DNA of 22,970 nucleotides from a virus: positions 1 through 22,970 of IMG/VR virus record IMGVR_UViG_3300027971_000234; one strand, 5' to 3'. Shown one piece after another: positions 6,534 to 22,229 of this stretch. The notes beneath the pieces were generated by a model that searched no databases, had not been told where the DNA came from, and saw only the letters and a program-made list of their open reading frames with translations. Both the position numbers and the translations under genes were made by a program. How positions within the stretch are numbered: the stretch's first letter is position 1; every line of letters starts with the position of its first letter.

Positions 6534-8351
6534 TTAATTATACCTTCTTCTAAATAATGATTCAACACCTTGTGAGTCAGGACCTTTAGCAGGTGGCACT
6601 GTTGTTGTCAATCCACCATCAGACATACTCACTCGTCCGCCATCCGAGAATCTTTTAGAAAAAGTTCCCATTACGCTATCATATAAATCAAATATTTCTT
6701 TTTTAGACATACCTGTAGTTTCATAACCTTTTTTATTTAATGTTTGTTCTTCATAACTTTTAACTTGTCCACCTTGATCAAAACTAGCTATTCCACCATC
6801 TGCCTTTTTTGTAGGAGTAACGCGAGCCGCGGCGTCTTGTTCAGATTTTAAAATATTTTGTAAAAGTTCATTTTGATTATATTTATATCCTCCAGTATTA
6901 CCAAAAGCATGAACTCGTTCATCTCCTCCTATATTTGCCATAGGTTTATTATAAATTGATTCTAATCTATCAAGAGCTCTTTTTTGTAAATCTATTTGAG
7001 ATTGCAATTCTACTGATGGAGTGCCTGTATATCCATATTGCTCTATTGGAGTTCCTCTTGATGAATATTGATATTGTGTTTGAGGTCGTTGTTGTTGAAC
7101 TGAAGGTGGTGCTTGAAATCTTTGGTTATAAATAGAAGTTGCTAAATCAATTGTTGATTTTTGTGGATCAGCTTGAAAGGTTGGACCAAAATATGCTTCA
7201 TTTAAACTTCTTTGAAAAGATGGAAAAAAATCTTGTTGATATCTTAACTCTTCCATTTCAGGTTCTGAATATCCAGCTGCTTGTGCTTGTTGCATCATCA
7301 GTCCAGCTTGTGGACTAAACACATCTCTAAATCTTTGACCTGATGTAAATATATTTCCTGTTAATGCAGAAATAACTGGATCGCTATAACCATATTGATC
7401 AATTGGAGATCTTTGTAAAGCAAGTGGATCTATGTTTCCTCCAACTTGATATCCCGGTCTTTCACGAAACATACTTGCAACACCACCGTCTGCATAAGGT
7501 GTGTCTGCTCTCATTGCAGCAAATTCTGTTGGTATATTAATATCAATATCTACTCCTTCTCCTTTGCTCGCTCTTGGTCCTAAAAGATTTCCTAACATTT
7601 CTAAACCAGCTGAAGTATCTACTCTTTTATTTTTAAATGAATTTGAAATATAATCTTTTATTAAAGATGTATCTACATCTCTGGCTTTAGGGTTATCATT
7701 TCCTATCCATCCTGTAAAATTACCTTGAGTTCCATATGCTGGATTCCAATCATATTTATCTTTAACTTTTACATCTAAAGTTTTTGGATCTATTTCATAA
7801 CTGTAAGTTCCTAATGTTGCATAAGTTGAAGGAAATTTAGTTATTGCATTTTGTCTACTTGATCTAGTTAAGTGTTGATCTTTTTCATTAACTTGCCCTG
7901 AAAGATCTCCTGTTCTTGAATATTTTTCTAATGCTTGTTTTCTTAAATCTAATTTAAAATCATCTGGAAAATAATTCTCATCAAGTTTTCCTGTTTTTAA
8001 ACCTGGAACCATAGTTCTTGTATATAATCTATATTCAGGTCCTATATTATTTTTTATTAAATTACTTAATCCACCATCAGCAAGATCCATATACTGTCTA
8101 TCTCTATTCATAATTTCTGGCATTACTGGAACTGCTCCTTTTGGAATAACATCTCTTGGTGGATAGATAGGCATTGTTTCATAACTATCATATTCTGGAG
8201 GTGAATAGTTTGGATATTTAGATTCTAAATTTCCTAAAATTTCTTGTTCAGTGTATGGTGTATATTTATCTAATGGTATTTCTTCTGGAGATCTTTCTTT
8301 ATTAGAAACTCTTGTTACAAATTTTTCAAATGCTTCTTCGATTCCTGCCAT
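6534..8351 (-). CDS. Unknown 605-aa protein between TerL and portal
   Basis: I do not recognise a named family. The protein is soluble, rich in Tyr, Gln, Asp and Pro, with no TM segment or catalytic motif. Residues ~170-205 (STYATLGTYSYEIDPKTLDV, DKYDWNP) look like a small folded beta domain. The rest is low complexity, including Gln/Tyr/Pro-rich tracts (QQQRPQTQYQYSSRG). At least five Asp-Gly-Gly motifs are scattered along it: ADGGLSNL, ADGGVASMF, ADGGIASFDQGG, SDGGRVSM and SDGGL, with IASF/VASM after two of them. The gene follows TerL by 1 base and precedes the portal by 2, so a role in the virion or its assembly (internal, ejected or packaging accessory) is likely by position only. Confidence 0.7.
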   Translation of the reverse strand: MAGIEEAFEKFVTRVSNKERSPEEIPLDKYTPYTEQEILGNLESKYPNYSPPEYDSYETMPIYPPRDVIPKGAVPVMPEIMNRDRQYMDLADGGLSNLIKNNIGPEYRLYTRTMVPGLKTGKLDENYFPDDFKLDLRKQALEKYSRTGDLSGQVNEKDQHLTRSSRQNAITKFPSTYATLGTYSYEIDPKTLDVKVKDKYDWNPAYGTQGNFTGWIGNDNPKARDVDTSLIKDYISNSFKNKRVDTSAGLEMLGNLLGPRASKGEGVDIDINIPTEFAAMRADTPYADGGVASMFRERPGYQVGGNIDPLALQRSPIDQYGYSDPVISALTGNIFTSGQRFRDVFSPQAGLMMQQAQAAGYSEPEMEELRYQQDFFPSFQRSLNEAYFGPTFQADPQKSTIDLATSIYNQRFQAPPSVQQQRPQTQYQYSSRGTPIEQYGYTGTPSVELQSQIDLQKRALDRLESIYNKPMANIGGDERVHAFGNTGGYKYNQNELLQNILKSEQDAAARVTPTKKADGGIASFDQGGQVKSYEEQTLNKKGYETTGMSKKEIFDLYDSVMGTFSKRFSDGGRVSMSDGGLTTTVPPAKGPDSQGVESLFRRRYN

Positions 8352-8352
8352 A

Positions 8353-9831
8353 TTAATAATAAGTTCTGTTATGATGAATCACTGGTTCGTCTCTATAATC
8401 CTCTGGGTGATCTATAAAACCACCTTGTCGAAATCTCATTACTGCTTGAGTCATAGAATCTACCAAGTCATCGTTATCCCCGTAAGGAAATGCTGCGCAT
8501 TCCTCTACGACCTCTTCAGCAAACTTTTGATCAGGTGCCCATATTTGTCCTGATTCAAACAATGGCGCAACTGCATTTACCCTTGCATGCTTATCATTTC
8601 CTTTGCTCGGTGTAAAGTTAACAACGGGAATACCCATTTTACGTAATTCATAGGTCAAAGGTAGTCCTGATGCTTTAGCTTCAATGATCACCGTTTCTGG
8701 ATTCCAGTAGCTATATTGTTCTAATGCTTTACGTTTTAATTCTGGAAACTCTAATCTTTCCTTATAAGCATCTAGTAATATTAAATTCGGTTCGCTATCC
8801 TCGTTCAATCTAAATACACCCCACGTTGTGATTGCAGAGTAATCCGCCGTTTCTTTTTTAAGAAACGCTGTATCATAACTTTGAATGACATGATCTAAAG
8901 GAGGAATATAAGGTTTATCCCAAACTCTCCACCACTCACGTTTAATGATTGATCCCTCTTCTGCCGTTGGATTTTGCATCCATTGTGCATTCCATTTCTG
9001 AACCGACAAAGAAGCTTTGACAGATTCTAATTCTGATAACTTCCAATACTCTGGCCACACCGCTTGATTGGTTGGAAGAATAGCTGGAAACTCAATCAAC
9101 TCCCATTGATCTGCTTTTGTTTCAGCTGATGATTTTATAAGTTGTGCTGTTAAATCTTTAACTGACCAACGCGTCATAACCACGACAATCTTACCGCCGG
9201 GTTGTAATCTCTGACGAGGTCCTGATGTATACCATTCATAAGCACGTTCCAGCGCTTCTGGATTCATGGCGTCTTGTTCTGAATGTGGATCATCTATAAT
9301 TAATAGATCAGCGCCTCGACCTGTTATCGCACCGCCGACACCGGCTGCAAAGTATTCACCCCCTTGTTCCGTTTCCCAACGGCCCGCGGCTTGCGAGTCT
9401 TCACGTAATCTTGTTTGAAATATTTTCTGATAGTCTTCGCTGTCAATGAGTGTTTTAGCTTTTCTACCGAACCGAACAGCGAGCTCCGCGGTGTGAGTAG
9501 TTTGGATAATCTTTAGTTTAGGATTCTTACCTATCATCCAAGCGGGGAGCAGGAACGATGCAAACTCTGATTTGGTATGCCTTGGTGGCATGTTGATTAT
9601 TAAACGATTGATATCGCCTCGTGCAAGTCTATTGAACTGATCAGCAATTTTTTTATGATGATCTCCTTGTATAAAATCTGGCCAAACAGTTTTAACAAAC
9701 TTTAAGAAATCATTATTGATTTCTTTTTTGTTTTTCTTTTCACGTAACATAAGAAAACATTTTCTATAATCCTTACGTGCATCTACTGGTAATTTTTGTA
9801 TCTGTTCTTCTGTTAGTGTTAACTCTTCCAT
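8353..9831 (-). CDS. terL: Terminase large subunit
   Basis: This 492-aa protein is the DNA-packaging motor and nuclease. The ATPase domain shows a Walker A-type sequence MPPRHTKSE at 81-89 and Walker B LLIIDDP at 176-182, with RGADLL just before. The nuclease domain shows SYDTAF (D320), VIIEAKASG (E384) and DNDDLVDS (~452-459) as the likely acidic metal-binding triad. The common form of the first motif is PPRHGKSE; a Thr replaces the Gly here. The product should dock on the portal with TerS. Oddly, the probable small subunit is at 17007-17525 on the other strand rather than next door. It is the first gene of the leftward operon and begins beside the 1-kb non-coding region. Confidence 0.95.
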   Translation of the reverse strand: MEELTLTEEQIQKLPVDARKDYRKCFLMLREKKNKKEINNDFLKFVKTVWPDFIQGDHHKKIADQFNRLARGDINRLIINMPPRHTKSEFASFLLPAWMIGKNPKLKIIQTTHTAELAVRFGRKAKTLIDSEDYQKIFQTRLREDSQAAGRWETEQGGEYFAAGVGGAITGRGADLLIIDDPHSEQDAMNPEALERAYEWYTSGPRQRLQPGGKIVVVMTRWSVKDLTAQLIKSSAETKADQWELIEFPAILPTNQAVWPEYWKLSELESVKASLSVQKWNAQWMQNPTAEEGSIIKREWWRVWDKPYIPPLDHVIQSYDTAFLKKETADYSAITTWGVFRLNEDSEPNLILLDAYKERLEFPELKRKALEQYSYWNPETVIIEAKASGLPLTYELRKMGIPVVNFTPSKGNDKHARVNAVAPLFESGQIWAPDQKFAEEVVEECAAFPYGDNDDLVDSMTQAVMRFRQGGFIDHPEDYRDEPVIHHNRTYY

Positions 9832-9871: not shown

Positions 9872-10094
9872 GAGCTTGAAAGTACAATGAATGTTACGAA
9901 AAAGGGTTTCATAAAAATTTTTTATAAAATTTTTGAGGCATTGCAATATTTATAAATATTATTTTTTTGGGGGTAGGGGTACATAAAACAACATATATTT
10001 TGGAAATGTTTTTGGCGCGTAGGAATGTCCAAATCCTTGATTATAGAACAACATTTAGATACATCTAAAAGTTTAAGGGTATAGGGGTAAAGAA

Positions 10095-10146
10095 AAATAC
10101 TTCGTATTTCACTTTCATTTTGATTAGGTAATAACTTCGTTATTAC
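10095..10146. repeat. Pair of similar TTC-loop hairpins
   Basis: Two consecutive inverted repeats share the centre ACTTCGT: 10095-10109 (AAATAC, TTC, GTATTT) and 10128-10146 (GTAATAAC, TTC, GTTATTAC). The second has an 8-bp stem. They are spaced about 20 bases apart and could be protein-binding dyads. No function is known. Confidence 0.5.
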
Positions 10147-10167
10147 TTAATCGTTAAACAAGGAACG

Positions 10168-10203
10168 GATACACGCGATACGCGAACACGCGTGGCGTGT
10201 ATC
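10168..10203. repeat. Strong nested hairpin, GC-rich in an A/T-rich setting
   Basis: The outer stem pairs GATACACGC (10168-10176) with GCGTGTATC (10195-10203), 9 bp. After a small bulge an inner stem pairs ACGCG (10180-10184) with CGCGT (10189-10193) around an AACA loop. This is the most stable inverted repeat in the gene-free region. There is no T-run after it on either strand, so it does not look like a simple terminator. It could be a cruciform, an origin structure or an RNA stem. Confidence 0.6.
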
Positions 10204-10319
10204 GTTGGCGTTGGCTTGGCGGTTAGCGGTACGCTGTTGGCGTAGCGTGAAACGATAATAGATATTAATTAAAAGATAATGCTTGTCTTATAATATCCCA
10301 TAATATAAACCTTATGTTC

Positions 10320-10386
10320 TGGGTTGATAAGATACTAATACTTAATTAATAACTTATATTAATTAATATCTTGGTAGCATAACCCA
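10320..10386. repeat. Long imperfect stem-loop
   Basis: Three consecutive pairings nest within 67 bases: TGGGTT (10320-10325) with AACCCA (10381-10386), AAGATA (10329-10334) with TATCTT (10367-10372), and TTAATTAATA (10342-10351) with TATTAATTAA (10357-10366), leaving a 5-base loop. A 7-base bulge lies on the 5' side. Twenty-two pairs in nested order are unlikely by accident even in A/T-rich DNA. Role unknown: structured RNA or origin cruciform. Confidence 0.55.
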
Positions 10387-10751
10387 CGCCTAACGATTCG
10401 CGTATAGGTTGCATTTGTTTAGCTGTTATTTAATCGCGGATAGTTATTCAGTTATCTTTATTTATAAATGATAAGCGGATTTTGGATTGAGTAAAGGTAA
10501 GGCGGTCAGCGTTTCGTTAATATGCGTTAAGCGTTGGCGGATATTGGAACGGGGATTGTTAAGCATTTTGGCGGTTTGTTATATTTTTGGCGGTTGATTG
10601 CGGATATTTGATAAAGTATTTCGAAGCGGGAAGCGACGGGCTTTGGCTAGTTAATCGGTTTTATTCAGTCGGTTGAATTTACTTTGATTAACTTAAAAAC
10701 TGTATTTTATTAGATAGTTATTGATTAAGCGTTTCAAGTAAGGGTTGCGGT

Positions 10752-10767
10752 GTTGCAAGATTGCAAC
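10752..10767. promoter_or_regulatory. Operator-like dyad upstream of the early block
   Basis: GTTGCAA and TTGCAAC are separated by GA (10752-10767), a symmetric 16-base site ~45 bases before the TATAAT at 10810. Its place suggests a repressor or activator site for the rightward genes. Inferred from symmetry and position only. Confidence 0.35.
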
Positions 10768-10786
10768 TGTTCAAAACTATTTAACT

Positions 10787-10815
10787 TATCCTTTAAATAA
10801 CGCTTTAAATATAAT
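10787..10815 (+). promoter_or_regulatory. Possible promoter of the rightward early-type block
   Basis: A perfect TATAAT at 10810-10815 stands ~55 bases before the ATG at 10871. At 17-base spacing the -35 position reads TATCCT, a poor match, so activity might depend on an activator at the dyad 10752-10767. Weak in view of local A/T richness. Confidence 0.3.
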
Positions 10816-10870
10816 TTCAAATATGTATTATCCAACACAGAAAGAATAACAATAAAAGAAAGAGGAAAAA

Positions 10871-11098
10871 ATGATGTTAAGTTATAAAACAATCACATTT
10901 CATTATCCATTATCAAATATTGAAATTGATTTTAACGGAAAAAATGTTTTTAAGGTTTTTACTATTGATGATACGGGCAATAGAGATAATCAACCGCTTG
11001 AAATATTAAGAGAGCCATTAATGACAAACAAAAACGATATTAATTTGGCTCAATTATTTTGTGATAATTGGATAAGAACAGAATTATATAAAATTTAA
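10871..11098 (+). CDS. Small early-type protein of unknown function
   Basis: A 75-aa protein, not recognised. It begins with ATGATG, and AGAGGA lies 5 bases before the first ATG. The N-terminal half looks like beta strands (SYKTITFHYPLSN, IEIDFNGKNVFKVFTIDD) and the C-terminal third helical (DINLAQLFCDNWIRTELYKI). There is no TM segment or metal motif. It is the first gene of the plus-strand block that also encodes ArdA, and its TAA stop lies inside the TTTAATTAACT that opens the first double-hairpin element. As a small first gene after a large regulatory region it may be a host takeover or anti-defence protein; that is inference from position. Confidence 0.65.
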   Translation: MMLSYKTITFHYPLSNIEIDFNGKNVFKVFTIDDTGNRDNQPLEILREPLMTNKNDINLAQLFCDNWIRTELYKI

Positions 11099-11147
11099 TT
11101 AACTCAAAGCCCTTAATCTAGGGCTTTGGGATAGTTAAAAGACTATC
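11094..11147 (+). repeat. Double-hairpin intergenic element, copy 1
   Basis: TTTAATTAACT at 11094-11104 contains the upstream stop codon. Hairpin 1 pairs CAAAGCCC (11105-11112) with GGGCTTTG (11121-11128). Hairpin 2 pairs GATAGT (11130-11135) with ACTATC (11142-11147). A Shine-Dalgarno (GAGAGGA) and the next ATG follow 18 bases later. Hairpin 1 has a different stem sequence from copies 2 and 3 but the same form. Confidence 0.75.
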
Positions 11148-11164
11148 AAAAAAGAGAGGATAAA

Positions 11165-11338
11165 ATGCAACTAACAATAGAGATAAAAAGCGTTTATGGC
11201 GTGGATAGGATTTATGCTGTATGTAATAACGCTAAATTAATAACAAAGTTAAAAAATAGTAAAACTTTAAGTAAAGAAGATATTTCAATTTTAAGAGAAT
11301 TGGGGTATAAAATCGAAACGAAGCAACAAACGATATAG
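11165..11338 (+). CDS. 57-aa early-type protein of unknown function
   Basis: The ATG at 11165 is preceded by a good GAGAGGA, 5 bases away. The product starts MQLTIEIKSVYGVDRIYAVC, then has a Lys-rich linker and a C-terminal helix (SKEDISILRELGYKIE). A short beta hairpin followed by one helix is suggested. No catalytic or membrane motif is seen. The second half (ITKLKNSK then an Ile/Leu helix and a Gly) resembles the second half of the next gene's product (ITKRLKDKK), so the two may be diverged duplicates. It sits between the first double-hairpin element and the 51-aa gene, 5 bases from that gene's ATG. Function unknown. Confidence 0.6.
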   Translation: MQLTIEIKSVYGVDRIYAVCNNAKLITKLKNSKTLSKEDISILRELGYKIETKQQTI

Positions 11339-11499: not shown

Positions 11500-11569
11500 A
11501 GAGTTTTGTCTTTCGGTAATTGTTTTGGCGTATCTTTACGCTTTAACAGTATTTTTATTTTTAATTTAA
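11492..11569 (+). CDS. Possible 25-aa single-TM microprotein
   Basis: An ATG overlapping the end of the 51-aa gene by 8 bases opens a short frame reading MIREFCLSVIVLAYLYALTV and ending FLFLI. That is one continuous hydrophobic helix with a charged start (R, E). Its TAA is exactly the one embedded in the TTTAATTAACT that begins double-hairpin element 2. This is where the two other elements carry the stop of the gene before them, and it is the main reason to take so short a frame seriously. No clear Shine-Dalgarno is seen, so it would depend on coupling. It may still be accidental. Confidence 0.35.
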   Translation: MIREFCLSVIVLAYLYALTVFLFLI

Positions 11570-11622
11570 TTAACTTATAACGCCTATTCATTTAGGCGTT
11601 ATTGGATAGTTAAATAGCTATC
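11565..11622 (+). repeat. Double-hairpin intergenic element, copy 2
   Basis: TTTAATTAACT at 11565-11575. Hairpin 1 pairs ATAACGCCTA (11577-11586) with TAGGCGTTAT (11593-11602) around a 6-base loop. Two bases later hairpin 2 pairs GATAG (11605-11609) with CTATC (11618-11622), extendable by a T-G and a T-A pair. The ardA start codon lies 27 bases downstream. Confidence 0.8.
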
Positions 11623-11648
11623 ATAACAATAAACAAAGGGTGTAAAAA

Positions 11649-12197
11649 ATGGAAAATGTACAAACAACAGAAATAAAAAAAGAAATACCAAAAGACACTA
11701 GCAACGAATATTCAATTTATATTGCTTGTTTAGCTTCATATAATAACGGAATATTATTTGGTAAATGGATTAAGCCAAGTAATGATGTTGAAGAATTACA
11801 AGGGCAAATAAATGAAATTCTTAAATCTTCATCAATTCCTAATGCGGAAGAATGGGCTATTCACGATTATGACGATTTTCATAATTTAGGGGAAAATCCA
11901 AATTTGGAAGATATTACAAAAATCGTTGAAGCATATGAAGAACACGGAATAGAACAAATAAACGCTTTTTTAACTTTGTATAGTGTTGAAGATTTAGAAC
12001 ATTTTGAAGAAAGCTATCAAGGCGAACATGACAGCTTTTTAGATTATGCAACTAATATATTTGATGAATGTTATTTACATGATGTACCAGAAAGCGTTGC
12101 TTCATATATTGATTATGAAAAATTTGCCCGTGATTTAAACCACGATTATAACAGCGTTGATAGTACAAACGGGGTTTTTGTTTTTGGTAGCTTTTAA
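11649..12197 (+). CDS. ardA: ArdA-family antirestriction protein
   Basis: This 182-aa, very acidic protein shows ArdA landmarks in order: YSIYIACLASYNNGILFGKW (21-40), INEILKSSSIPNAEEWAIHD (54-73) with YDDF after it, LGENPNLEDITKIVEAYEEH (80-99), EHFEESYQGEHDSFLDYA (118-135) and YIDYEKFARDL (153-163) followed by GVFVFGSF. ArdA dimers mimic bent B-form DNA and block Type I restriction enzymes, so the phage could use it on entry. The length is close to the usual ~165-180. The first ~18 residues are a Thr/Lys/Glu-rich tail outside the domain. It is flanked on both sides by double-hairpin elements, supporting cassette-like organisation. A weak AAGGG lies ~11 bases before the ATG. Family call is confident; activity is inferred. 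Confidence 0.93.
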   Translation: MENVQTTEIKKEIPKDTSNEYSIYIACLASYNNGILFGKWIKPSNDVEELQGQINEILKSSSIPNAEEWAIHDYDDFHNLGENPNLEDITKIVEAYEEHGIEQINAFLTLYSVEDLEHFEESYQGEHDSFLDYATNIFDECYLHDVPESVASYIDYEKFARDLNHDYNSVDSTNGVFVFGSF

Positions 12198-12250
12198 TTA
12201 ACTTATAACGCCTTAATATAGGCGTTATGGGATAGTTAAAAATAACTATC
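12193..12250 (+). repeat. Double-hairpin intergenic element, copy 3
   Basis: TTTAATTAACT at 12193-12203 carries the ardA stop. Hairpin 1 pairs ATAACGCCT (12205-12213) with AGGCGTTAT (12220-12228) around TAATAT. Hairpin 2 pairs GATAGTTA (12231-12238) with TAACTATC (12243-12250) around AAAA. The next ATG is at 12278. Stem 1 is shared with copy 2 but the loop differs. Confidence 0.8.
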
Positions 12251-12277
12251 ATTAAACAACTAACAAAAGGGTAAAAA

Positions 12278-12457
12278 ATGAAAAAAAACGATTATAAGAT
12301 GAGAGAATATATTGTCACTTTAAAAATTGATAATGAAAAAGTGAGAACTTTTGCCAATAACAAAAAAAGTGCAATCAATAATATTTTAAATTTTTACAGG
12401 TGGAAAAACTACAATAAAGATTGGGGTATCACAGCAAAATTTATAAGACAGCTTTAA
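12278..12457 (+). CDS. 59-aa early-type basic protein of unknown function
   Basis: The ATG at 12278 follows AAAAGGG by 7 bases. The protein reads MKKNDYKMREYIVTLKIDNE, then KVRTFANNKKSAINNILNFY, ending with an Arg/Trp/Lys-rich tail. Two beta strands then a helix are suggested; positive charge and aromatic residues would suit nucleic acid binding. No family is recognised. It is bracketed by double-hairpin copies 3 and 4 and is the last gene before the convergent minus-strand block, so it is the third cassette of this block. Function unknown. Confidence 0.65.
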   Translation: MKKNDYKMREYIVTLKIDNEKVRTFANNKKSAINNILNFYRWKNYNKDWGITAKFIRQL

Positions 12458-12467
12458 AATTAGAAAT

Positions 12468-12508
12468 CGCCACGCTGTAATGGCGTGGCGTTGTCAATTA
12501 AATGACAA
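12468..12508. repeat. Double-hairpin element, copy 4 (divergent sequence, same form); possible terminator
   Basis: Hairpin 1 pairs CGCCACGC (12468-12475) with GCGTGGCG (12483-12490). Hairpin 2 follows at once, TTGTCA (12491-12496) with TGACAA (12503-12508) around ATTAAA. Neither stem matches copies 1-3, but two adjacent hairpins after a gene's stop are repeated. Read on the minus strand the GC stem is followed by a T-rich stretch, so it could also terminate the convergent minus-strand operon. Confidence 0.6.
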
Positions 12509-12532: not shown

Positions 12533-12621
12533 ACAGGCACAAGCGAAATAAGCCACAGGCACAGGCACAGGCACAGGCACAAGCGAACATACAAGCACAG
12601 GCGACAGGCACAGGCACAAGC
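12533..12621. repeat. Hexamer repeat array 1 (ACAGGC / ACAAGC)
   Basis: Eight ACAGGC and four ACAAGC hexamers occur within 89 bases, often as runs (four ACAGGC in tandem at 12555-12578) closed by ACAAGCGA. Short irregular spacers (GAAATAAGCC, GAACAT, G) interrupt it. It is C/G-rich against an A/T-rich background and ends 2 bases before the stop of the nuclease gene at 12624. A second, larger array of the same unit lies at 16794-16968 in the same orientation. Confidence 0.9.
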
Positions 12622-12623
12622 GA

Positions 12624-12983
12624 TTACAGTTTATATAAATAATCTCTAATATCTTTCCAATTATTAGCTATTGAATTTTTAGCTTTAAATCCCTCTTTCA
12701 ATAAGTCATCAATAAACTTGCTTTCAAATAGCTTAACTTCTTTTTTATGTCCTATTAAAAAGTAATGTCCGATAGGGTGTTGCATAGCAAAAGATATTTG
12801 AAACGGGCTAATTCTTATTTTATTGTGGTCAGTACACTTTAGCTCACAGGTGTAAAACCTATGCGTGTTTTGAACATAAAACACAACATCAGGAAACCCT
12901 ACGCCAATAAAATTTTCTATTCTGTGGTGTAGTATCTTTGGTGTTTCCTTTACGAAGCGTTTATAGAGGTCTTTCTCTTTCAC
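12624..12983 (-). CDS. PD-(D/E)XK (VRR-NUC/resolvase-like) nuclease
   Basis: A 119-aa protein with the nuclease core IGVGFPDVVFYVQNTHRFYT followed by CELK. D32 of PDVVFY and E47-x-K49 fit the metal-binding D...ExK signature, and the acidic helix before it supplies E23. The lone domain of about 120 residues fits the small VRR-NUC-type and Holliday junction resolvase-like enzymes of phages. It could resolve branched DNA before packaging or attack host DNA. It is the last gene of a minus-strand run of small genes and its 3' end touches hexamer array 1. The start codon overlaps the stop of the 59-aa upstream gene as ATGA, so translation is coupled. Confidence 0.75.
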   Translation of the reverse strand: MKEKDLYKRFVKETPKILHHRIENFIGVGFPDVVFYVQNTHRFYTCELKCTDHNKIRISPFQISFAMQHPIGHYFLIGHKKEVKLFESKFIDDLLKEGFKAKNSIANNWKDIRDYLYKL

Positions 12984-13159
12984 TCTTTGTGTTTGTTATT
13001 GAGTTCAACATTAACTTCGTTTTCGTAGTCAGATAAAAAATCATCAACTGTTTGTGCTGTTGTGTTATCTATCTCTAAAATGTCCTCTACTTTGCCATTG
13101 TTCCATTTTGCATTAATAGACCACCCAATAATTCTTAATCGTTCTGTGTTTTCACTCAT
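12980..13159 (-). CDS. 59-aa acidic protein of unknown function
   Basis: The ATG at 13159 overlaps the end of the 61-aa gene by 8 bases, and its TGA overlaps the nuclease ATG (ATGA at 12980-12983). Both joints argue that this short frame is real. It reads MSENTERLRIIGWSINAKWN, NGKVEDILEIDNTTAQTVDD and an acidic tail. One beta hairpin and an acidic helix are suggested. Because it is cotranslated with the PD-(D/E)XK nuclease it could be an accessory or inhibitor of that enzyme, which is speculation. No family recognised. Confidence 0.65.
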   Translation of the reverse strand: MSENTERLRIIGWSINAKWNNGKVEDILEIDNTTAQTVDDFLSDYENEVNVELNNKHKE

Positions 13160-13337
13160 TTATTTCTTCCTCACTTTCTTCATCTTCTATTGGATTATGA
13201 TAAAATACAATTCCACCCTCTAAATCGTGTGGATTTTTTAAATCTTCTTTATCGCAAGTATCTAAATAAGCCCAATTTGTATGTCCATAATTTTCTTCGC
13301 AATATTCGTCAAGCATTTCAGAAAAATCTCTACTCAT
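13152..13337 (-). CDS. 61-aa acidic protein of unknown function
   Basis: The product starts MSRDFSEMLDEYCEENYGHT and ends in a very acidic run (EDEESEEEINE). With Asp/Glu far outnumbering Lys/Arg it resembles DNA-mimic or charge-mimic mini-proteins only in composition. No motif fixes a role. Its ATG overlaps the stop of the 119-aa gene upstream by 4 bases (13334-13337), and its own end overlaps the next gene, so it is the middle of a coupled chain. Confidence 0.6.
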   Translation of the reverse strand: MSRDFSEMLDEYCEENYGHTNWAYLDTCDKEDLKNPHDLEGGIVFYHNPIEDEESEEEINE

Positions 13338-13693
13338 TTCAAAGTCCTATATATTTCATGTTGTTCGTGTGCTAATTCTTGTGCTGTTTTAGCGTCATAA
13401 TCTGGTTCTCTATCCTCATCTTTTTCTAAATCAAAGTCGTGTAGGAAAGCCATACTTAATTTTTCTAGTTTTATCATATCTTCATTAGATATTGGTATTT
13501 GACTTTCTATTCTAACTGCTCTCCCGTCAGATAAAAATTGTTCATCATCAATATCTTCATCACAGAAAAATTTAGATATTATTTGTCCGTCAGTATAAAA
13601 AAGACGCTGTTTGTTAGTTATAACTGCATAATCAGTATATTCTCTATCCCCGTCATAAATTCTAAAGCGTAATAGTGTTTTATCTTTTTTCAT
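13334..13693 (-). CDS. 119-aa acidic protein of unknown function
   Basis: Not recognised. The N-terminal half has beta character (LLRFRIYDGDREYTDYAVIT; FYTDGQIISKFFCDE), the centre is acidic, and the C terminus is helical and acidic with KTAQELAHEQHEIYRTL. No TM, metal or nuclease motif is visible. It overlaps the 64-aa gene upstream by 14 bases and the 61-aa gene downstream by 4. It belongs to a run of small minus-strand genes between the two hexamer arrays, which look like an exchangeable accessory module. Confidence 0.6.
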   Translation of the reverse strand: MKKDKTLLRFRIYDGDREYTDYAVITNKQRLFYTDGQIISKFFCDEDIDDEQFLSDGRAVRIESQIPISNEDMIKLEKLSMAFLHDFDLEKDEDREPDYDAKTAQELAHEQHEIYRTLK

Positions 13694-13874
13694 TTTCTAG
13701 TTCCTTTCTATTTCTTATCCCTATTTCTTCTATTACATCTGCCCATTGAAATATGAAGTTTTCGCAAAGGGTTTGCCGATACTTTTTTTCTTTCTTTATA
13801 TTCTCATTAAAATTTATCACAGCTTTGTGATAACTTTCAATAAGTTCTTCTGTTATTATCTTTTTTTCTGCCAT
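13680..13874 (-). CDS. 64-aa helical protein of unknown function
   Basis: A highly charged helical protein: MAEKKIITEELIESYHKAVI, then NFNENIKKEKKYRQ and a final helix ending RKELENEKR. The Lys/Glu pattern suggests a coiled coil or helical hairpin. No family is recognised. It overlaps the 33-aa basic gene upstream by 19 bases and the 119-aa gene downstream by 14. Start chosen at the only in-frame ATG. Confidence 0.55.
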   Translation of the reverse strand: MAEKKIITEELIESYHKAVINFNENIKKEKKYRQTLCENFIFQWADVIEEIGIRNRKELENEKR

Positions 13875-13957
13875 AGCGTTTTAAATACTCGTTTTCCTTT
13901 CTTTTTGTTGTAGCTTCCGTAATATCCGACTACTTCTCTTTTAGTTTTCTTTTTCAT
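13856..13957 (-). CDS. 33-aa very basic mini-protein
   Basis: The ATG at 13957 opens a frame with Lys/Arg at about half its positions: MKKKTKREVVGYYGSYNKKK then GKRVFKTLWQKKR. It fills the gap between the 68-aa gene, which ends at 13959, and the 64-aa gene, which it overlaps by 19 bases. The fit in an otherwise gapless chain is the main support. It would bind nucleic acid or acidic partners if made. Too short for a family call. Confidence 0.45.
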   Translation of the reverse strand: MKKKTKREVVGYYGSYNKKKGKRVFKTLWQKKR

Positions 13958-13958
13958 T

Positions 13959-14165
13959 TTATTCACTTTCTTTTAATACTTTTTTTATTTCGTTTAATAT
14001 CCACTCATTATCATCAACTTCGGGATATTTCATTAAGTGTTCAATCATAGACAATTTATTTTTTAATTGTTTATGACTTTCAACTATTCTAATTGCTCTC
14101 ATCTTTTGTTGTGCAAAAGTATTTTCTAATTTGTCTATTGCAATATTTAATCTTTCATCAAACAT
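13959..14165 (-). CDS. 68-aa helical protein of unknown function
   Basis: An all-helical prediction: MFDERLNIAIDKLENTFAQQ, then KMRAIRIVESHKQLKNKLSM and an acidic C-terminal helix. Leu/Ile heptads are compatible with a coiled coil. No known domain. It starts 2 bases from the stop of the 63-aa gene; a purine-rich GGAAAGTAAAA acts as the ribosome site. Function unknown. Confidence 0.55.
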   Translation of the reverse strand: MFDERLNIAIDKLENTFAQQKMRAIRIVESHKQLKNKLSMIEHLMKYPEVDDNEWILNEIKKVLKESE

Positions 14166-14167
14166 TT

Positions 14168-14359
14168 TTATTTTACTTTCCTTATTATGTTAAAAGAGGA
14201 AACATTATAATAATAATTTCCTTTTTCTATTTGTTCCAACTCTCTTTTTTTATCTCTATACTCCATAGCTTTATGGTACTCGTCAAAAGTTTGATTGTTT
14301 TCAACAGTACAATAATTATGGTTATTAGTTCTTATTACTACATATTTAGTTTCAATCAT
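14168..14359 (-). CDS. 63-aa protein of unknown function
   Basis: The product begins MIETKYVVIRTNNHNYCTVE, then a Lys/Glu helix (YHKAMEYRDKKRELEQIEKG) and a beta-type end (NYYYNVSSFNIIRKVK). Strand, helix, strand arrangement. Not recognised. It starts 1 base after the stop of the 74-aa gene and ends 2 bases before the next ATG, again part of the coupled minus-strand chain. Confidence 0.55.
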   Translation of the reverse strand: MIETKYVVIRTNNHNYCTVENNQTFDEYHKAMEYRDKKRELEQIEKGNYYYNVSSFNIIRKVK

Positions 14360-14360
14360 A

Positions 14361-14585
14361 TTATCCTTGTAAGTTAATTGTCCATTTGTTTTTAGCTGTG
14401 CGGTAGTTATTTTTATCTAAATCAAAATAACAAAACGCTATTTCGCCACTTGTCGTTGTAAATACTTTTGATTTTTCATCAAGCATACCAGAACGACATA
14501 CTGATTTTTTATCTATGTTTTCTTTACCATTAATTTTTTCTGGTACATAGATTATATTAAAATGTGCTTTCTTATTCTCTAACAT
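14361..14585 (-). CDS. 74-aa protein of unknown function
   Basis: The product reads MLENKKAHFNIIYVPEKING, then KENIDKKSVCRSGMLDEKSK and GEIAFCYFDLDKNNYRTAKN. Mixed alpha/beta, two isolated Cys, no recognised motif. A clear AGGAG stands 7 bases before the ATG, inside the 3' end of the 113-aa gene that it overlaps by 14 bases. Function unknown. Confidence 0.6.
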   Translation of the reverse strand: MLENKKAHFNIIYVPEKINGKENIDKKSVCRSGMLDEKSKVFTTTSGEIAFCYFDLDKNNYRTAKNKWTINLQG

Positions 14586-14913
14586 TATTAGACTCCTCTA
14601 AATTTGATAAAGGCACTACTGTTTTACGAGTGTAATCATTACCATAATAATCTTTCCTTTCTTCATTAACTATATCTATTGGTGTTTCGCTTGGTTTAGT
14701 TATTAAACCTAGAGTAAGAACACATCTATCAATATTTTTATTTAACCAATTAATCATACAAGTATAATCACAAAAATAGTTAAGATATTTAGTATAATCA
14801 TATTTAGTAGTAATTTTTTTTGTGCGTAAAACTTTAGCACCTTTAACACCTCTTATCCTAGAGAAAGTATTTCTAGTATGACAAGTAGGATTTTGGCAGT
14901 ATCTTTCACTCAT
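14572..14913 (-). CDS. 113-aa protein with a possible zinc-binding Cys cluster
   Basis: The N-terminal 60 residues hold YCQNPTCHTRNTF (C-x4-C-H) and, ~35 residues on, NYFCDYTCMINW (C-x3-C). Four Cys in two paired knuckles suggest a small zinc-binding module; it is not a standard finger. The region between is basic (KGAKVLRTKKITTKYDYTKY), suited to nucleic acid contact. The C-terminal 50 residues are unremarkable. It is separated from the 316-aa gene by a stem-loop at 14932-14968. Zn binding is inferred from Cys spacing. Confidence 0.6.
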   Translation of the reverse strand: MSERYCQNPTCHTRNTFSRIRGVKGAKVLRTKKITTKYDYTKYLNYFCDYTCMINWLNKNIDRCVLTLGLITKPSETPIDIVNEERKDYYGNDYTRKTVVPLSNLEESNNVRE

Positions 14914-14931
14914 TTTTTTCCTTTCTATTAT

Positions 14932-14968
14932 TTGTTATGGGATATTATATTACAATACCCCATAACAA
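14932..14968. repeat. Intergenic stem-loop between two minus-strand genes
   Basis: TTGTTATGGG (14932-14941) pairs with CCCATAACAA (14959-14968), 10 bp, and the inner bases can extend it after one mismatch. It lies between the stop at 14977 and the start at 14913. No T-run follows, so partial termination or RNA processing between the 316-aa and 113-aa genes is more likely than full termination. Confidence 0.6.
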
Positions 14969-14976
14969 GTCAATTA

Positions 14977-15927
14977 TTAATTTACTGTTGCCTGTACTTG
15001 TCTTGCTTTCTTAAATTGTTCAATCACAGATTTGTTATCTTGTTTTGCTCGTCTTGATTTAATTAAGTTAGCCAAGTTTTCTGGTTGATAAATAGTTAAT
15101 GAAACACCAGCAGTTCTTTGTAGTTCGTTCTCATTAACATCTAAACCCAACGCACCACACAAATCGATTGCGTCCTTAATATATTTATAATCTTTAAGAG
15201 CATTGTGTATATCTCTCATATCTTTAAATATATTTTCTGCCCAAGTATAATGAGCATTAACAAAACTTTCTTTTGCAAGTTTAAAAACTTTCATTTCATT
15301 AAACTCACTATTAAAACAAGGTATTGTTCTTGTACGACAATAGCTAGTTCCGATAACATCAAGAGAAAATTTATCTTTCCACTCTTGATATAATCCACCC
15401 TCACTATTAATCCCAAGAAATTTTTTTATCTTGTCTTTCTCTTGCGTCCAATTAGGATTTTCCCAATTTTCTTTTGCTTTCTGTTGGATATTAATTTCTG
15501 GATTAATACCTGCATTTTTTATTTCGTTTCGATAATATGCAATACCAAAATCAATATTATCAAATCGTCCTGACAAACTTGCGTCCATTTTAAAATCAAA
15601 ATGTTCGGCAACATCATCATCTTTTTGAGTATCAGTTTTCATTTCAGTATTAGCAAAATAAAAACAACTATCTTTGGCAACTACATCACACGCACTACCA
15701 TATTTTTTCTTAAATGCTTGTAGTGTTGCAACATCATTTTTAGGATATGCTCGTTGCACAACATTAGTAGCTAACTTAAATGCTCTATCATAGGCAATAT
15801 TAATATCCTCTTTTGCTGATATAAAATTTTCAAGTTCGGTAGTTTTTTCGTTCTCAAAATGAGATTGAATTAAACCACCAATTTTTTTTCTTATATCTGC
15901 GTTCAGTCTTGTTTTACTTGTTTGCAT
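14977..15927 (-). CDS. 316-aa protein of unknown function (faintly Nmad5-like start)
   Basis: A soluble, mostly helical protein. It starts MQTSKTRLNADIRKKIGGLI; the T-R-L-x-x-x-x-R-x-x-I opening faintly recalls Nmad5-type phage proteins linked to modified nucleotides, but I would not rely on it. The centre has an Asp-rich stretch (DFKMDASLSGRFDNIDFGIA) and Trp-rich loops (NWENPNWTQEKDK). The C-terminal ~90 residues form helices (LKDYKYIKDAIDLCGALGLD) and end with a basic tail. It is the largest gene between the hexamer arrays and the first of the minus-strand run. AGAAAGGA gives a good ribosome site ~8 bases from the ATG. It may be transcribed from within 15928-16140. Confidence 0.6.
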   Translation of the reverse strand: MQTSKTRLNADIRKKIGGLIQSHFENEKTTELENFISAKEDINIAYDRAFKLATNVVQRAYPKNDVATLQAFKKKYGSACDVVAKDSCFYFANTEMKTDTQKDDDVAEHFDFKMDASLSGRFDNIDFGIAYYRNEIKNAGINPEINIQQKAKENWENPNWTQEKDKIKKFLGINSEGGLYQEWKDKFSLDVIGTSYCRTRTIPCFNSEFNEMKVFKLAKESFVNAHYTWAENIFKDMRDIHNALKDYKYIKDAIDLCGALGLDVNENELQRTAGVSLTIYQPENLANLIKSRRAKQDNKSVIEQFKKARQVQATVN

Positions 15928-15957
15928 TTTATTTTCCTTTCTATTTATTTATTAATT

Positions 15958-16095
15958 GTGTGAGTATCAAATCCCTAGCGAGAATTCAAGGTATCTTATA
16001 TACTTACCTTACTATGCTGTTCGAACAATTGATTGGGTACACTTTTTAGCTAGTTCTTTGTGTTTAAACCTATCTCTCTTATTCGATACTCACAC
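15958..16095. ncRNA. Candidate structured element closed by an 11-bp stem
   Basis: GTGTGAGTATC (15958-15968) is the exact reverse complement of GATACTCACAC (16085-16095). Within the 138 bases are AAGGTA/TACCTT (15988-15993 with 16005-16010), a perfect TGTTCGAACA palindrome (16018-16027), CTAGC/GCTAG (15975-15979 with 16049-16053) and a GTTTAAAC palindrome (16062-16069). A multibranched RNA or a mobile-element-like unit would both fit. No open frame is evident inside. Strand is undecided. Confidence 0.4.
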
Positions 16096-16096
16096 C

Positions 16097-16130
16097 TTGT
16101 AAATAAAATTTATTAAAAAATTATTTACAA
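16097..16130. repeat. A/T-rich hairpin
   Basis: TTGTAAATAA (16097-16106) pairs with TTATTTACAA (16121-16130) around a 14-base A/T loop. It abuts the 138-base unit and precedes TATAAT at 16138-16143. It could be a regulator dyad or weak terminator. Confidence 0.45.
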
Positions 16131-16182
16131 ATAAATATATAATGCCCCTTGAAATAAATGTCAATAGGATTATATGGGAAAG

Positions 16183-16310
16183 TGAATATCCAAAATCCCA
16201 AACTTATTAAAGTTCGTATGGGTATATTAAATACACGGATATTCATTAACCTAAATTAGTTATACCCTTTCTTTATTTAGGTTGTTGTGCGTGTGGGGGA
16301 AACTCCACAC
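16183..16310 (+). ncRNA. Structured 5' leader, possible cis-regulatory RNA
   Basis: On the plus strand: TGAATATCC (16183-16191) pairs GGATATTCA (16237-16245), enclosing CCCA/TGGG (16197-16200 with 16219-16222) and AACTT/AAGTT with an ATTA loop. Next comes AACCTAAAT (16248-16256) with ATTTAGGTT (16275-16283). Last is an 8-pair stem GTGTGGGG/CTCCACAC capped by a GAAA tetraloop (16291-16310). GGGTATA (16220-16226) can instead pair TATACCC (16261-16267), breaking into the first two stems. The ATG at 16341 follows 30 bases later. This is the pattern of a switching leader, but no known riboswitch class is recognised. Confidence 0.5.
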
Positions 16311-16340
16311 AATCAATATAAGGGTGAGAAAGAAATAATA

Positions 16341-16517
16341 ATGAAAATACACGCAATAAATATGAATGACGGTTATCATTTAACTTATAACAGTATAGAA
16401 GATTTTATAATGGATTTTAATGATGGTCTTATAAGTTCTGAAACAATAAATTTATATACAGAAGAACAAAAAGAAGAAGTTAATAAAATAAAACAACAAA
16501 TAAAAAAAGGTAAATAA
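16341..16517 (+). CDS. 58-aa protein of unknown function
   Basis: I place the start at the ATG at 16341 rather than a GTG at 16287, because the latter would make the protein run through the tetraloop hairpin at 16291-16310. The product starts MKIHAINMNDGYHLTYNSIE, continues DFIMDFNDGLISSETINLYT and ends in a Lys/Glu-rich helix. Ribosome binding is by a distant AGGG or a purine stretch GAGAAAGAAA. No family recognised. It is followed after 1 base by the 85-aa gene. Its unusually structured leader suggests regulated expression. Confidence 0.6.
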   Translation: MKIHAINMNDGYHLTYNSIEDFIMDFNDGLISSETINLYTEEQKEEVNKIKQQIKKGK

Positions 16518-16518
16518 T

Positions 16519-16776
16519 ATGAAAAAGAAAATAGAAAAAACAATTCTACATAATATTAAAGATGATGATATTGATATGCCTATGCAAACCACTTTTGATA
16601 CTTGGTGTTGGTTTTTAGAGGGTTTTTCAAGTGAGTGTAGTGAAAATGTTTATAAAATGCTTGAAGAATTAGAAATAAAAGAAGATTGGAAATTTCAATC
16701 AAAACTTTTAAATTTTGTCGCAAGAAAAAAAGGTGTAAATATTTGTGATGAAACCGAGTGTTATATTGAACAATAA
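16519..16776 (+). CDS. 85-aa protein of unknown function
   Basis: The product starts MKKKIEKTILHNIKDDDIDM, with a Trp/Phe/Cys-rich middle (TFDTWCWFLEGFSSECSENV) and a helical C terminus (LLNFVARKKGVNICDETECY). Mixed charge, four Cys without a clear metal pattern. It starts one base after the previous stop and is followed by hexamer array 2. Not recognised; probably an early regulatory or host-interaction protein by context. Confidence 0.55.
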   Translation: MKKKIEKTILHNIKDDDIDMPMQTTFDTWCWFLEGFSSECSENVYKMLEELEIKEDWKFQSKLLNFVARKKGVNICDETECYIEQ

Positions 16777-16793
16777 ATAAATAATCCAAAAGC

Positions 16794-16968
16794 ACAGGCG
16801 AATTGTGTTTAAGGCACAGGCACAAGCTATGTTTAAGGCACAGGCACAAGCGAGAACAGGCACAAGCGAACACAGGCGGGAACAAGCGACAATCACAGGC
16901 GAACACAGGCGCAGGCGCAAGCGATAACAGGCGCAGGCGCAAGCGATAACAGGCGCAGGCGCAAGCGA
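16794..16968. repeat. Hexamer repeat array 2 (RCAGGC / RCAAGC), upstream of terS
   Basis: About 175 bases of ACAGGC, GCAGGC, ACAAGC and GCAAGC hexamers, usually closed by GCGA. Higher-order repeats are visible: GTTTAAGGCACAGGCACAAG occurs twice with a 24-base period, and AACAGGCGCAGGCGCAAGCG occurs with a 22-base period in the last third. The right end is 38 bases before the terS start. Same unit and orientation as array 1, but longer and drifting from ACAGGC to GCAGGC. Frames read through it are low complexity and not genes. Confidence 0.9.
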
Positions 16969-17006
16969 ATATTGACCTTTACTCAAACTTACTATAAGCT
17001 CTATTC

Positions 17007-17525
17007 ATGAACCTTCCGAAGAGATTAACAGAAATGCAACAGAAGTTTGCTGAATTATTAGTATTCAATGAAGGTAGAAAGACACCAACAGAATGTGCAA
17101 TAGAAGCGGGATATGATAAAGATTCTGCTCATGTACGCGCAAGCGAATTAAGAAATCCAAATAAATATCCGGGCGTAGTTAAATACATTGGCGAACTGCG
17201 TGAAGAGATTCAAAAGAAATATGAAATCACATTTGAAAAGCATGTAGCTGAACTTGCAAAGTTAAGAGATTCATCTAGGGATAAGGGAGCGTGGTCGGCA
17301 GCCATCAATGCGGAAGTTGCAAGAGGAAAAGCTGCAGGTTTATATGTTGAGCAAAAGATTATACGAACAGGCAAATTAGAAGATATGACTGAAAAAGAAT
17401 TAGAATTAAAAATGAAACAGCTTATTGAAGATCACAAAGGTTTAATAGTAGAAGCTGATTTTAATGTAGTTAATGAAAATCAAATAGAAAGCAAAGAAGA
17501 ACCTAAACAATCTGACTCGATCTAA
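17007..17525 (+). CDS. terS: Probable terminase small subunit
   Basis: This 172-aa protein starts NLPKRLTEMQQKFAELLVFN, then TPTECAIEAGYDKDSAHVRA, SELRNPNKYPGVVKYIGELR. L-T-x-x-Q-x-K-F-x-E followed by A-x-x-AGY-x-x-x-SA-x-x-x-AS-x-L-x-NP matches the small-terminase helix-turn-helix (Terminase_2-like), which recognises the packaging site. A helical central region for oligomerisation and an acidic tail follow (~100-172). Length is usual for the family. It is on the opposite strand from TerL, ~7 kb away. A hexamer array ends 38 bases upstream, and a 12-base copy of the array end (GCGCAAGCGAAT) lies inside the gene at 17137-17148. No good Shine-Dalgarno is seen before the ATG. Confidence 0.85.
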   Translation: MNLPKRLTEMQQKFAELLVFNEGRKTPTECAIEAGYDKDSAHVRASELRNPNKYPGVVKYIGELREEIQKKYEITFEKHVAELAKLRDSSRDKGAWSAAINAEVARGKAAGLYVEQKIIRTGKLEDMTEKELELKMKQLIEDHKGLIVEADFNVVNENQIESKEEPKQSDSI

Positions 17526-17739
17526 TTACTTTAGACATCTTATGTTTTTGTGGTTCAGTTACTAACACAAGTCTATGTGTTTCAAAAGGACCGATTAACA
17601 TATTCTCCATTAATTTTATTTCTGTGATGTCATGTAGATCGCCGTTCGGCATCTGAACTTGTATGCGTGCGTTCTGTGCAATTTCTGACTTTGTCAAAAG
17701 TTTATCAAGCACGCTTGCAAATGTCTTTCCATTTATCAT
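17503..17739 (-). CDS. 78-aa conserved marine-phage protein, unknown function
   Basis: The product starts MINGKTFASVLDKLLTKSEI, then AQNARIQVQMPNGDLHDITE and ends LVLVTEPQKHKMSKVIRSSQ. The F-A-x-x-L-D-K-L-L then NAR-x-x-VQ-PNG-x-L-H-D-I then LVL-T-EP-K-x-K layout is one I have seen repeatedly in marine phages with no assigned function. A small beta-sheet domain is likely. It runs towards terS and overlaps its last 23 bases on the other strand. Confidence 0.65.
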   Translation of the reverse strand: MINGKTFASVLDKLLTKSEIAQNARIQVQMPNGDLHDITEIKLMENMLIGPFETHRLVLVTEPQKHKMSKVIRSSQIV

Positions 17740-18059: not shown

Positions 18060-18550
18060 TCTACATAAGTAGAATTTTTACCCCCCAATTGCAAATTAAA
18101 TTTGAAAAAAGGGGTCGCGTAGCGGGATACACAGAAATCCAGCAAAATGAACTATTTGCAATTCTACCCACTAAAATGAACAGTCCAAAATATGTATATA
18201 AATCAATAGCATATTCCCGCCGTGGCGAATCGTTGATACAAGCCCCTCCAGAATCGTTGTGCGCCAACACTTTTTTTCCCGTGGCGGAGTACAAAACCCT
18301 CTACTATTGATACACCTATGCACTTCTAGACGATTTCCGCCACGAGAGCCACGCGCCACGCTCCTCGAAAATATTTTATTTTATTTCTCTACCCCTAAAA
18401 TTTCCCTTATGTGTGGCGGAGTAATAAAAAAGCTATATAAATCAACGATCCTCGTTCCTCGCTCCGCCATACGTCATTTCGCGCTCATTATTCCGTTGAT
18501 ATGCCATAAAGATCTGCTATTAGGGGGTCGCGGATAGGGGGTAATTAAGC
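18060..18550. other. 490-base non-coding stretch with scattered short repeats
   Basis: No convincing gene is present. Short repeats stand out. GTGGCGGAGTA occurs at 18281-18291 and 18413-18423, and its partial reverse complement TCCGCCAC at 18336-18343. TATATAAATCAA occurs twice (~18195 and ~18433). ATCGTTGAT (18228-18236) faces ATCAACGAT (~18441-18449). GGGGTCGCG occurs near both ends (18111-18119 and 18524-18532). C and G are more frequent than in the neighbouring genes. AGGGGGT is doubled just before the next ATG (18522-18528, 18536-18542), and the second copy serves as its ribosome site. It may be regulatory or a decayed gene. Confidence 0.5.
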
Positions 18551-21905: not shown

Positions 21906-22078
21906 ATAGATAACTCCGCATTATCAATGTTCTCTAACATTTCCTCTTCTGTAAATGTTATCTCACCTTGTGATTTACATTCTTTACATTGGTATACTTC
22001 ACCATAGCAATCTCTACGATACCCATTACCTTTGCAATCATGACAAATAGTTTTATGCGTTTTGTTTTCCTTGTCCAT
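21902..22078 (-). CDS. 58-aa DnaJ-like zinc finger mini-protein
   Basis: The ATG at 22078 opens MDKENKTHKTICHDCKGNGY, then RRDCYGEVYQCKECKSQGE and an acidic helix. Two C-x-x-C-x-G-x-G-type knuckles (CHDCKGNG; CKECKSQG) with an extra Cys between resemble the DnaJ Cys-rich zinc-binding repeat, reduced to one pair. It would bind one zinc. Similar mini-proteins are common in phages; partner unknown. It overlaps the ribbon-helix-helix-like gene by 26 bases and the 31-aa gene by 4. Confidence 0.65.
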   Translation of the reverse strand: MDKENKTHKTICHDCKGNGYRRDCYGEVYQCKECKSQGEITFTEEEMLENIDNAELSI

Positions 22079-22229
22079 TTGTTTTTTCTCCTCTATTTTC
22101 TTTATAAAACTTTAAAAGTTTATCTACCATTTTAGATCGAGTTCTATTTGTTCTTTCTGCTTGTAATCCAAGTTCTTTCCAAGTTGTTATTGCAACAGAT
22201 AAAGACTTGTATTTAGACGGGTTTGCCAT
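22053..22229 (-). CDS. 58-aa ribbon-helix-helix-like protein
   Basis: The ATG at 22229 follows AGGAGAAGA by 3-6 bases. The product MANPSKYKSLSVAITTWKEL, GLQAERTNRTRSKMVDKLLK has the order strand (KSLSVAI), helix (TTWKELGLQAERT), turn (NRTR), helix (SKMVDKLLKFYKEN). This is the Arc/MetJ pattern with N-R-x-x-S-K-x-V-x-x-L-L. It may act as a dimeric DNA-binding regulator of the phage operons; symmetric sites such as the palindrome at 22505-22516 or the dyad at 10752-10767 are possible targets. Inference from pattern. Confidence 0.6.
   Translation of the reverse strand: MANPSKYKSLSVAITTWKELGLQAERTNRTRSKMVDKLLKFYKENRGEKTNGQGKQNA

Follow-up and report, generated by a model that had tools for sequence, protein, structure and literature searches.

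Polar arrays of a five-base core at gene boundaries of HTVC023P/HTVC027P-type pelagiphages, candidate binding sites for a regulator of accessory genes

What are the two GC-rich repeat arrays that a virus record 22,970 bases long (IMG/VR record IMGVR_UViG_3300027971_000234, hereafter the window) carries on its plus strand, at positions 12533..12623 (array 1) and 16794..16968 (array 2), and what might they do? An earlier note on this DNA was right about their places and their common orientation, and they lie far beyond chance: both have a GC content of 0.57 vs 0.32 for the window, and ACARGCNCAAGCGA with at most two mismatches has 17 matches in the window, 15 of them inside the arrays, when shuffles of the whole window lead one to expect 0.37. 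No third array was found in the window. The same note took the arrays for pure hexamers, a description that needs correction, as the cores are spaced by 6 and 10 bp with breaks (22,6,18,6,10,6,10,10,13,10,6,6,10... in array 2), and the unit in common with relatives is a core of five bases, CA(A/G)GC (CARGC), present 12 times in array 1 and 19 times in array 2. The TerL protein of the window is 73–77% identical to those of Pelagibacter phage HTVC027P and phage 023Pt_psg01, so that the window belongs with the HTVC023P-type podoviruses, and both arrays are part of a family of arrays that is conserved among HTVC023P/HTVC027P-type pelagiphages. Sequence comparisons lead us to lean, if only slightly, towards the view that the arrays are rows of sites bound by a multimeric regulator that times accessory genes.

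In total, 552 arrays from about 180 contigs were compared, a count that includes near-duplicates except where these were removed, and all 552 have the same orientation. They have in common with the window the CARGC core at a fixed pitch, which is 7 bp in most relatives, 8 bp in others, 6/10 bp in the window clade and 4/8 bp near 023Pt. Many contigs were retrieved via the array pattern itself; two sets are unselected in this respect. Relatives retrieved by the 316-aa protein, irrespective of arrays, mostly carry same-core arrays at pitch 7 or 8, and in a sample retrieved by an unrelated small protein arrays are present in 49 of 57 contigs (pitch 7 in 33, 8 in 10 and 4-with-8 in 6); about 12 contigs form an array-lacking clade. 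Five CAAGC at pitch 7 occur in at least 120 stretches of IMG/VR, and 119 of 120 among the matches listed belong to this phage family. Instead of occurring randomly all over the genome, the arrays are confined to one neighbourhood, that of the terminase small subunit (TerS), VRR-nuclease and TerL genes; in the HTVC027P genome they are found only at 16.5–17.7 kb. The typical gene order is TerS leftward, p78 and the nuclease rightward, at least one array, gp88 leftward, an array, at least one small leftward gene, in some cases a further array, and then p316 and TerL rightward. No description of these arrays was found in the literature searched, and Rfam gave no match.

Within the arrays, cores and spacers evolve very differently. 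In alignments of orthologous arrays (1,766 pairs), substitutions reach 3.5% in cores, 41.8% in spacers and 19.2% in flanks, figures obtained with cores required in the query array only, which can favour a core-on-core register. Spacers that change faster than flanks, next to cores that change far more slowly, would not be expected from neutral repeats. The pitch is single at all sites in 121 of the 122 contigs with at least two array sites, and it has changed at least eight times (about eight) on the TerS tree, a FastTree phylogeny of a gene that may also be exchanged among phages. Gene conversion, which would copy arrays from one site to another in the same genome, was considered and rejected: runs of at least three consecutive spacers are shared by none of 143 within-genome array pairs vs 1.2% of pairs between genomes, and in the relatives arrays resemble each other no more within a genome than between genomes, with some duplication inside arrays. 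Since the arrays are not copies, the best explanation of one pitch per genome is a factor that reads every site with the same geometry, and a pitch that stays single despite repeated switches points to a trans-acting reader.

The arrays fall into two types, and the window holds one of each. Gene-upstream arrays are followed within 80 bp by a good sigma70 promoter in 107 of 154 cases, compared with 6.2% of random positions and 9 of 277 in the upstream-side control, and the commonest arrangement (50 cases) has the last core directly against TTGACA. Nuclease-end arrays have a promoter in 7 of 140 cases, which equals background; several array sites per genome abutting promoters are thus a property of the gene-upstream type and not of the nuclease-end type. 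Array 2 is of the promoter type and lies upstream of the TerS gene (17007..17525, plus strand; phrog_51, E 2.4e-13) in 6/6 window-clade relatives. A promoter-like element, TTGACC-N15-TATAAG (16972..16998, plus strand), stands 5 nt past its last core, with the TerS ATG 8 nt past the -10 box; a generic consensus scan that accepts spacers of 16–18 only does not list this element. The block CAAGC-GAATA-TTGACCTTTACT ahead of TerS is invariant in all six window-clade contigs that reach TerS (L559–L563 and L089), although the adjoining genes change. Array 1, of the nuclease-end type, has its last core ending at 12621, followed by GA, and directly abuts the stop codon of a VRR-NUC/Hjc-like nuclease gene (12624..12983, minus strand, 119 aa; phrog_2165, E 1.7e-5; a homologue in L010 gives Hjc E 0.003), with no promoter downstream. 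It occupies the same position in L089, L561, L562 and L563, that is in 4/4 window-clade contigs that reach the nuclease gene, and in period-7/8 relatives; the nuclease gene is the constant neighbour of nuclease-end arrays.

Expression data from a relative bear on the promoter type. HTVC027P lacks its own RNA polymerase (PMC12753301). The HTVC027P genes with promoter-type arrays, B (17396–17439) and C (17719–17737), are gp33 and gp34, and in RNA-seq of infected cells the 'extra cluster 2' (6–9 h) consists, out of 87 genes, of exactly gp33 and gp34; the arrays go unmentioned in that study (PMC12753301). The match between arrays and a separate temporal cluster is supportive, not proof, because the two genes are neighbours. 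It suggests that the promoters of this expression class are marked by the arrays, which offer a sequence handle for finding its regulator in HTVC023P-type phages, widespread killers of SAR11, the commonest bacteria of the ocean.

The regulator model that we favour can be described as follows. Each array would be a row of CARGC sites along which one sequence-specific protein assembles side by side with constant spacing. If a -35 box lies at the end of the row or only a few bases from it, this protein may touch or block the host sigma70 RNA polymerase, and the accessory gene that follows the array, in the window TerS, would be given its own time class. At a nuclease-end array, which lies opposite a converging gene, the same protein may insulate the converging transcripts or load more protein. 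Array and promoter together would form an autonomous control unit where two modules meet, which would be why the modules between arrays vary. More tentatively, one may see here a family-wide element made of an iterated five-base word, whose pitch (4, 6, 7 or 8 bp) can evolve yet would be uniform within a genome, since all the sites are read by one polymerising regulator, giving accessory genes a private expression class. If this were true, a constant core with a pitch that switches repeatedly and in step over the genome would be a natural experiment in the geometry of DNA- or RNA-binding multimers, and some of the most abundant phages of the ocean would have such a private class.

Several observations weigh against the regulator model. 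Promoter control leaves the nuclease-end arrays unexplained, which are the commoner of the two types and have no promoter. The TerS promoter has a weak -10 box, the arrays of the window clade are irregularly spaced at 6/10 bp, and since gp33 and gp34 are adjacent their common expression could have another cause. Finally, three proteins are candidate readers only, and none is assigned. Two of them, p316 (14977..15927, minus strand), which in relatives is divergent from array-bearing genes, and a 74-aa WYL_2/Sm-like protein (14361..14585, minus strand; sub-threshold Pfam E 9e-4), are found in 27/36 and 26/36 array-bearing contigs sampled, respectively, vs 1/12 and 0/12 array-lacking contigs, an association confounded by phylogeny as most array-lacking contigs belong to a single clade; in HTVC027P the homologue of p316 is gp35. 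The third, a family-conserved 58-aa ribbon-helix-helix (RHH)-like protein (22053..22229, minus strand), has sub-threshold RHH_5 hits in 13/13 homologues (best 1.3e-3), and its AF2 model (pLDDT 74.5) has an extended N-terminus followed by two helices; the RHH-like protein of HTVC027P is gp21. A profile search of PDB sequences gave no match, and Foldseek found no significant PDB match for either of two RHH models. The proposal that the RHH type sets the pitch failed: an initial match of types 1 and 2 to pitches 6/8 and 7, seen in array-selected sets, was broken by contigs retrieved via the RHH protein alone, with type 1 at pitch 7 in 10 contigs and type 2 at pitch 8 in 4. Because of this failure, and because the RHH-like protein is kept at 87% identity in the array-lacking contigs L400 and L401, no reader was assigned.

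The nearest known design is the Omega/parS heptad array of plasmid pSM19035, in which several sites of 7–10 contiguous non-palindromic 7-bp repeats overlap promoters and Omega (ParB), a small RHH protein, controls these promoters, each dimer contacting one 7-bp unit (PMC9499535). The pelagiphage arrays are similar in consisting of contiguous 7–8-bp direct repeats with a conserved core in relatives (6/10 bp in the window clade) and in having several sites per genome at promoters, as the gene-upstream arrays do. They differ by their core (CAAGC vs WATCACW), by repeats that are all direct, with none inverted, by a pitch that varies between relatives, by the existence of a second array type at the nuclease gene end, and by an RHH-like protein that is only a candidate binder. 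MetJ dimers, also of the RHH type, bind cooperatively to tandem 8-bp met boxes at promoters, but met boxes are palindromic, whereas the units described here are asymmetric and belong to a lytic phage. The PeSL elements of T4-type phages are reportedly mobile regulatory cassettes, each an early promoter with a stem-loop between accessory genes, repeated in a variable region and linked to module shuffling. They would thus resemble the arrays as repeated regulatory or promoter elements between shuffled accessory genes, and differ in that the constant part in pelagiphages is an array of an iterated 5-bp core rather than a promoter plus stem-loop. In Geobacter, tandem octa- or heptanucleotides of four or five short units were predicted to be 'putative global regulator binding sites' (PMC2700814); here also short tandem units are taken as regulator sites, in a cellular genome, with other motifs and dispersed over the chromosome.

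An alternative that we regard as unlikely, although it fares best among the rivals, is that the arrays could act as RNA, as repeated protein-binding motifs in the 3' untranslated region of leftward transcripts that control stability or termination. All the arrays are sense to leftward genes and typically follow the stop codon of one, the WYL_2/Sm-like protein tracks with them, and a core with free spacers fits the design of ring-type RNA binders; TRAP, for example, recognises spaced GAG/UAG triplets as repeated RNA motifs. Such a role leaves unexplained why cores directly abut TTGACA, some arrays of the promoter type are not clearly preceded by a leftward gene, and common descent alone could keep the orientation.

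Recombination, put forward in the earlier note and narrowed here to swapping, appears rather less probable; the arrays would then be short-homology junctions through which coinfecting phages swap modules. The segment had been described as accessory and facing the other way from its surroundings, which is true in part: the open reading frames between 12624 and 15927 are on the minus strand, but two (16287–16776) are on the plus strand, and the minus-strand set includes p316 and p113, found in most relatives, as well as the array-linked nuclease gene. Excision or duplication of the segment via the arrays is not borne out, as both arrays and an occupied interval (2.4–5.2 kb) are present in 4/4 relatives that cover both ends (L089, L561, L562 and L563), none of which has a deleted form with one array left, and in the window the longest exact match between arrays 1 and 2 is 18 bp, with no long near-identical repeat copies. 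Swapping has some support, although causation by the arrays is not established. Interval genes differ among window-clade relatives (p316 is only in the window and L561, and the nuclease allele differs), in a few contigs the slot of gp88 holds a gene of 108–126 aa instead, and some small-gene families occur on either side of gp88, changing place around it. In the wider family 65 homology breakpoints fall within arrays vs 29.4 expected, a moderate enrichment that is inflated by alignment tails running into arrays and by the intergenic position of these. The arrays are module boundaries, and a repeated promoter element is present at the boundaries of swapped accessory genes; recombination leaves unexplained why only cores are conserved, why orientation and pitch are single and why promoters are abutted.

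Packaging (pac) or replication-initiator sites near TerS are improbable. Array 2 does lie immediately upstream of TerS, the TerS–TerL neighbourhood is the only place where arrays occur, and a polar array would suit directional packaging. However, no array is present in 12 contigs that share the nuclease gene and have an orthologous TerS (66–70% identical to that of the window where measured), which disfavours a packaging site read by TerS; there are several arrays per genome, at gene boundaries, and in L290, L365 and L366 TerS is inverted while the arrays stay.

A neutral or selfish simple repeat expanded by slippage is very improbable despite copy numbers that differ among close relatives (array 1 of the window vs L089) and the duplications within arrays, since the spacers are random and the cores conserved, orientation and place are fixed, and 86% of spacers are distinct per array, vs 25% in 118 cellular loci with the same 7-mer pattern, so that the whole-unit near-identity typical of microsatellites is absent from the phage arrays. 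These cellular loci have no phage genes and were rejected as relatives, being homogeneous tandem repeats of another kind.

Other features of the window lie around the arrays. A terminator-like hairpin, CGCCACGC...GCGTGGCG (12468..12490), is found between convergent genes just before array 1; it is the one hit of a consensus scan made in the window only, vs 1.8 expected in shuffles. The ArdA anti-restriction gene (11649–12197; Pfam E 4.5e-37) adjoins array 1. Three copies of a 5'-leader module (11096–11165, 11566–11649 and 12197–12278), each a hairpin followed by GGGATAGTTAA...ACTATC, sit just before short plus-strand genes, ArdA among them, and are possibly a repeated RNA control element. A related hairpin stretch (about 16249–16290) precedes the plus-strand gene at 16287 and is found again, in L562, ahead of TerS. 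Two long non-coding regions (9940–10870 and 18061–18550) are rich in short repeated words (GCGTAGCG..., CCGCCACG...).

Some relatives show further particularities at the same places. In HTVC027P (L149, MN698241) the nuclease gene, at 16174–16560, is unannotated; the annotated gp32 (16499–16747) is antisense to its 3' end and has a C-terminal half encoded by the array (KPQAPSCKPQA...), so that gp32 is probably not a gene. HTVC023P (L153) has, at 7190–7290 and 9600–9800, direct repeats of about 34 bp of the TTGAGAATAACAACGAAAAATTTT type just past TerS and the nuclease gene, where other relatives have CAAGC arrays. In 023Pt_psg01 (L151, 15380–15500) and in L407 (5950–6210), pitch-4 (GAGC)n arrays and a GGGTGGGCCC block occupy the nuclease-end position. 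Array-poor relatives (L026, 3500–5180; L400, 6990–8180) have TGCGACA-N3-TGTCGCA palindromes before TTGACA; this palindrome was rejected as a companion operator, being absent from the window. L026 has in addition repeated GGGTGGGCCCCGCCCAC-AAGTGTTTAGTG elements. Lastly, L010 carries a tRNA-Cys(GCA) gene (9096–9169) whose 3' end abuts an array.

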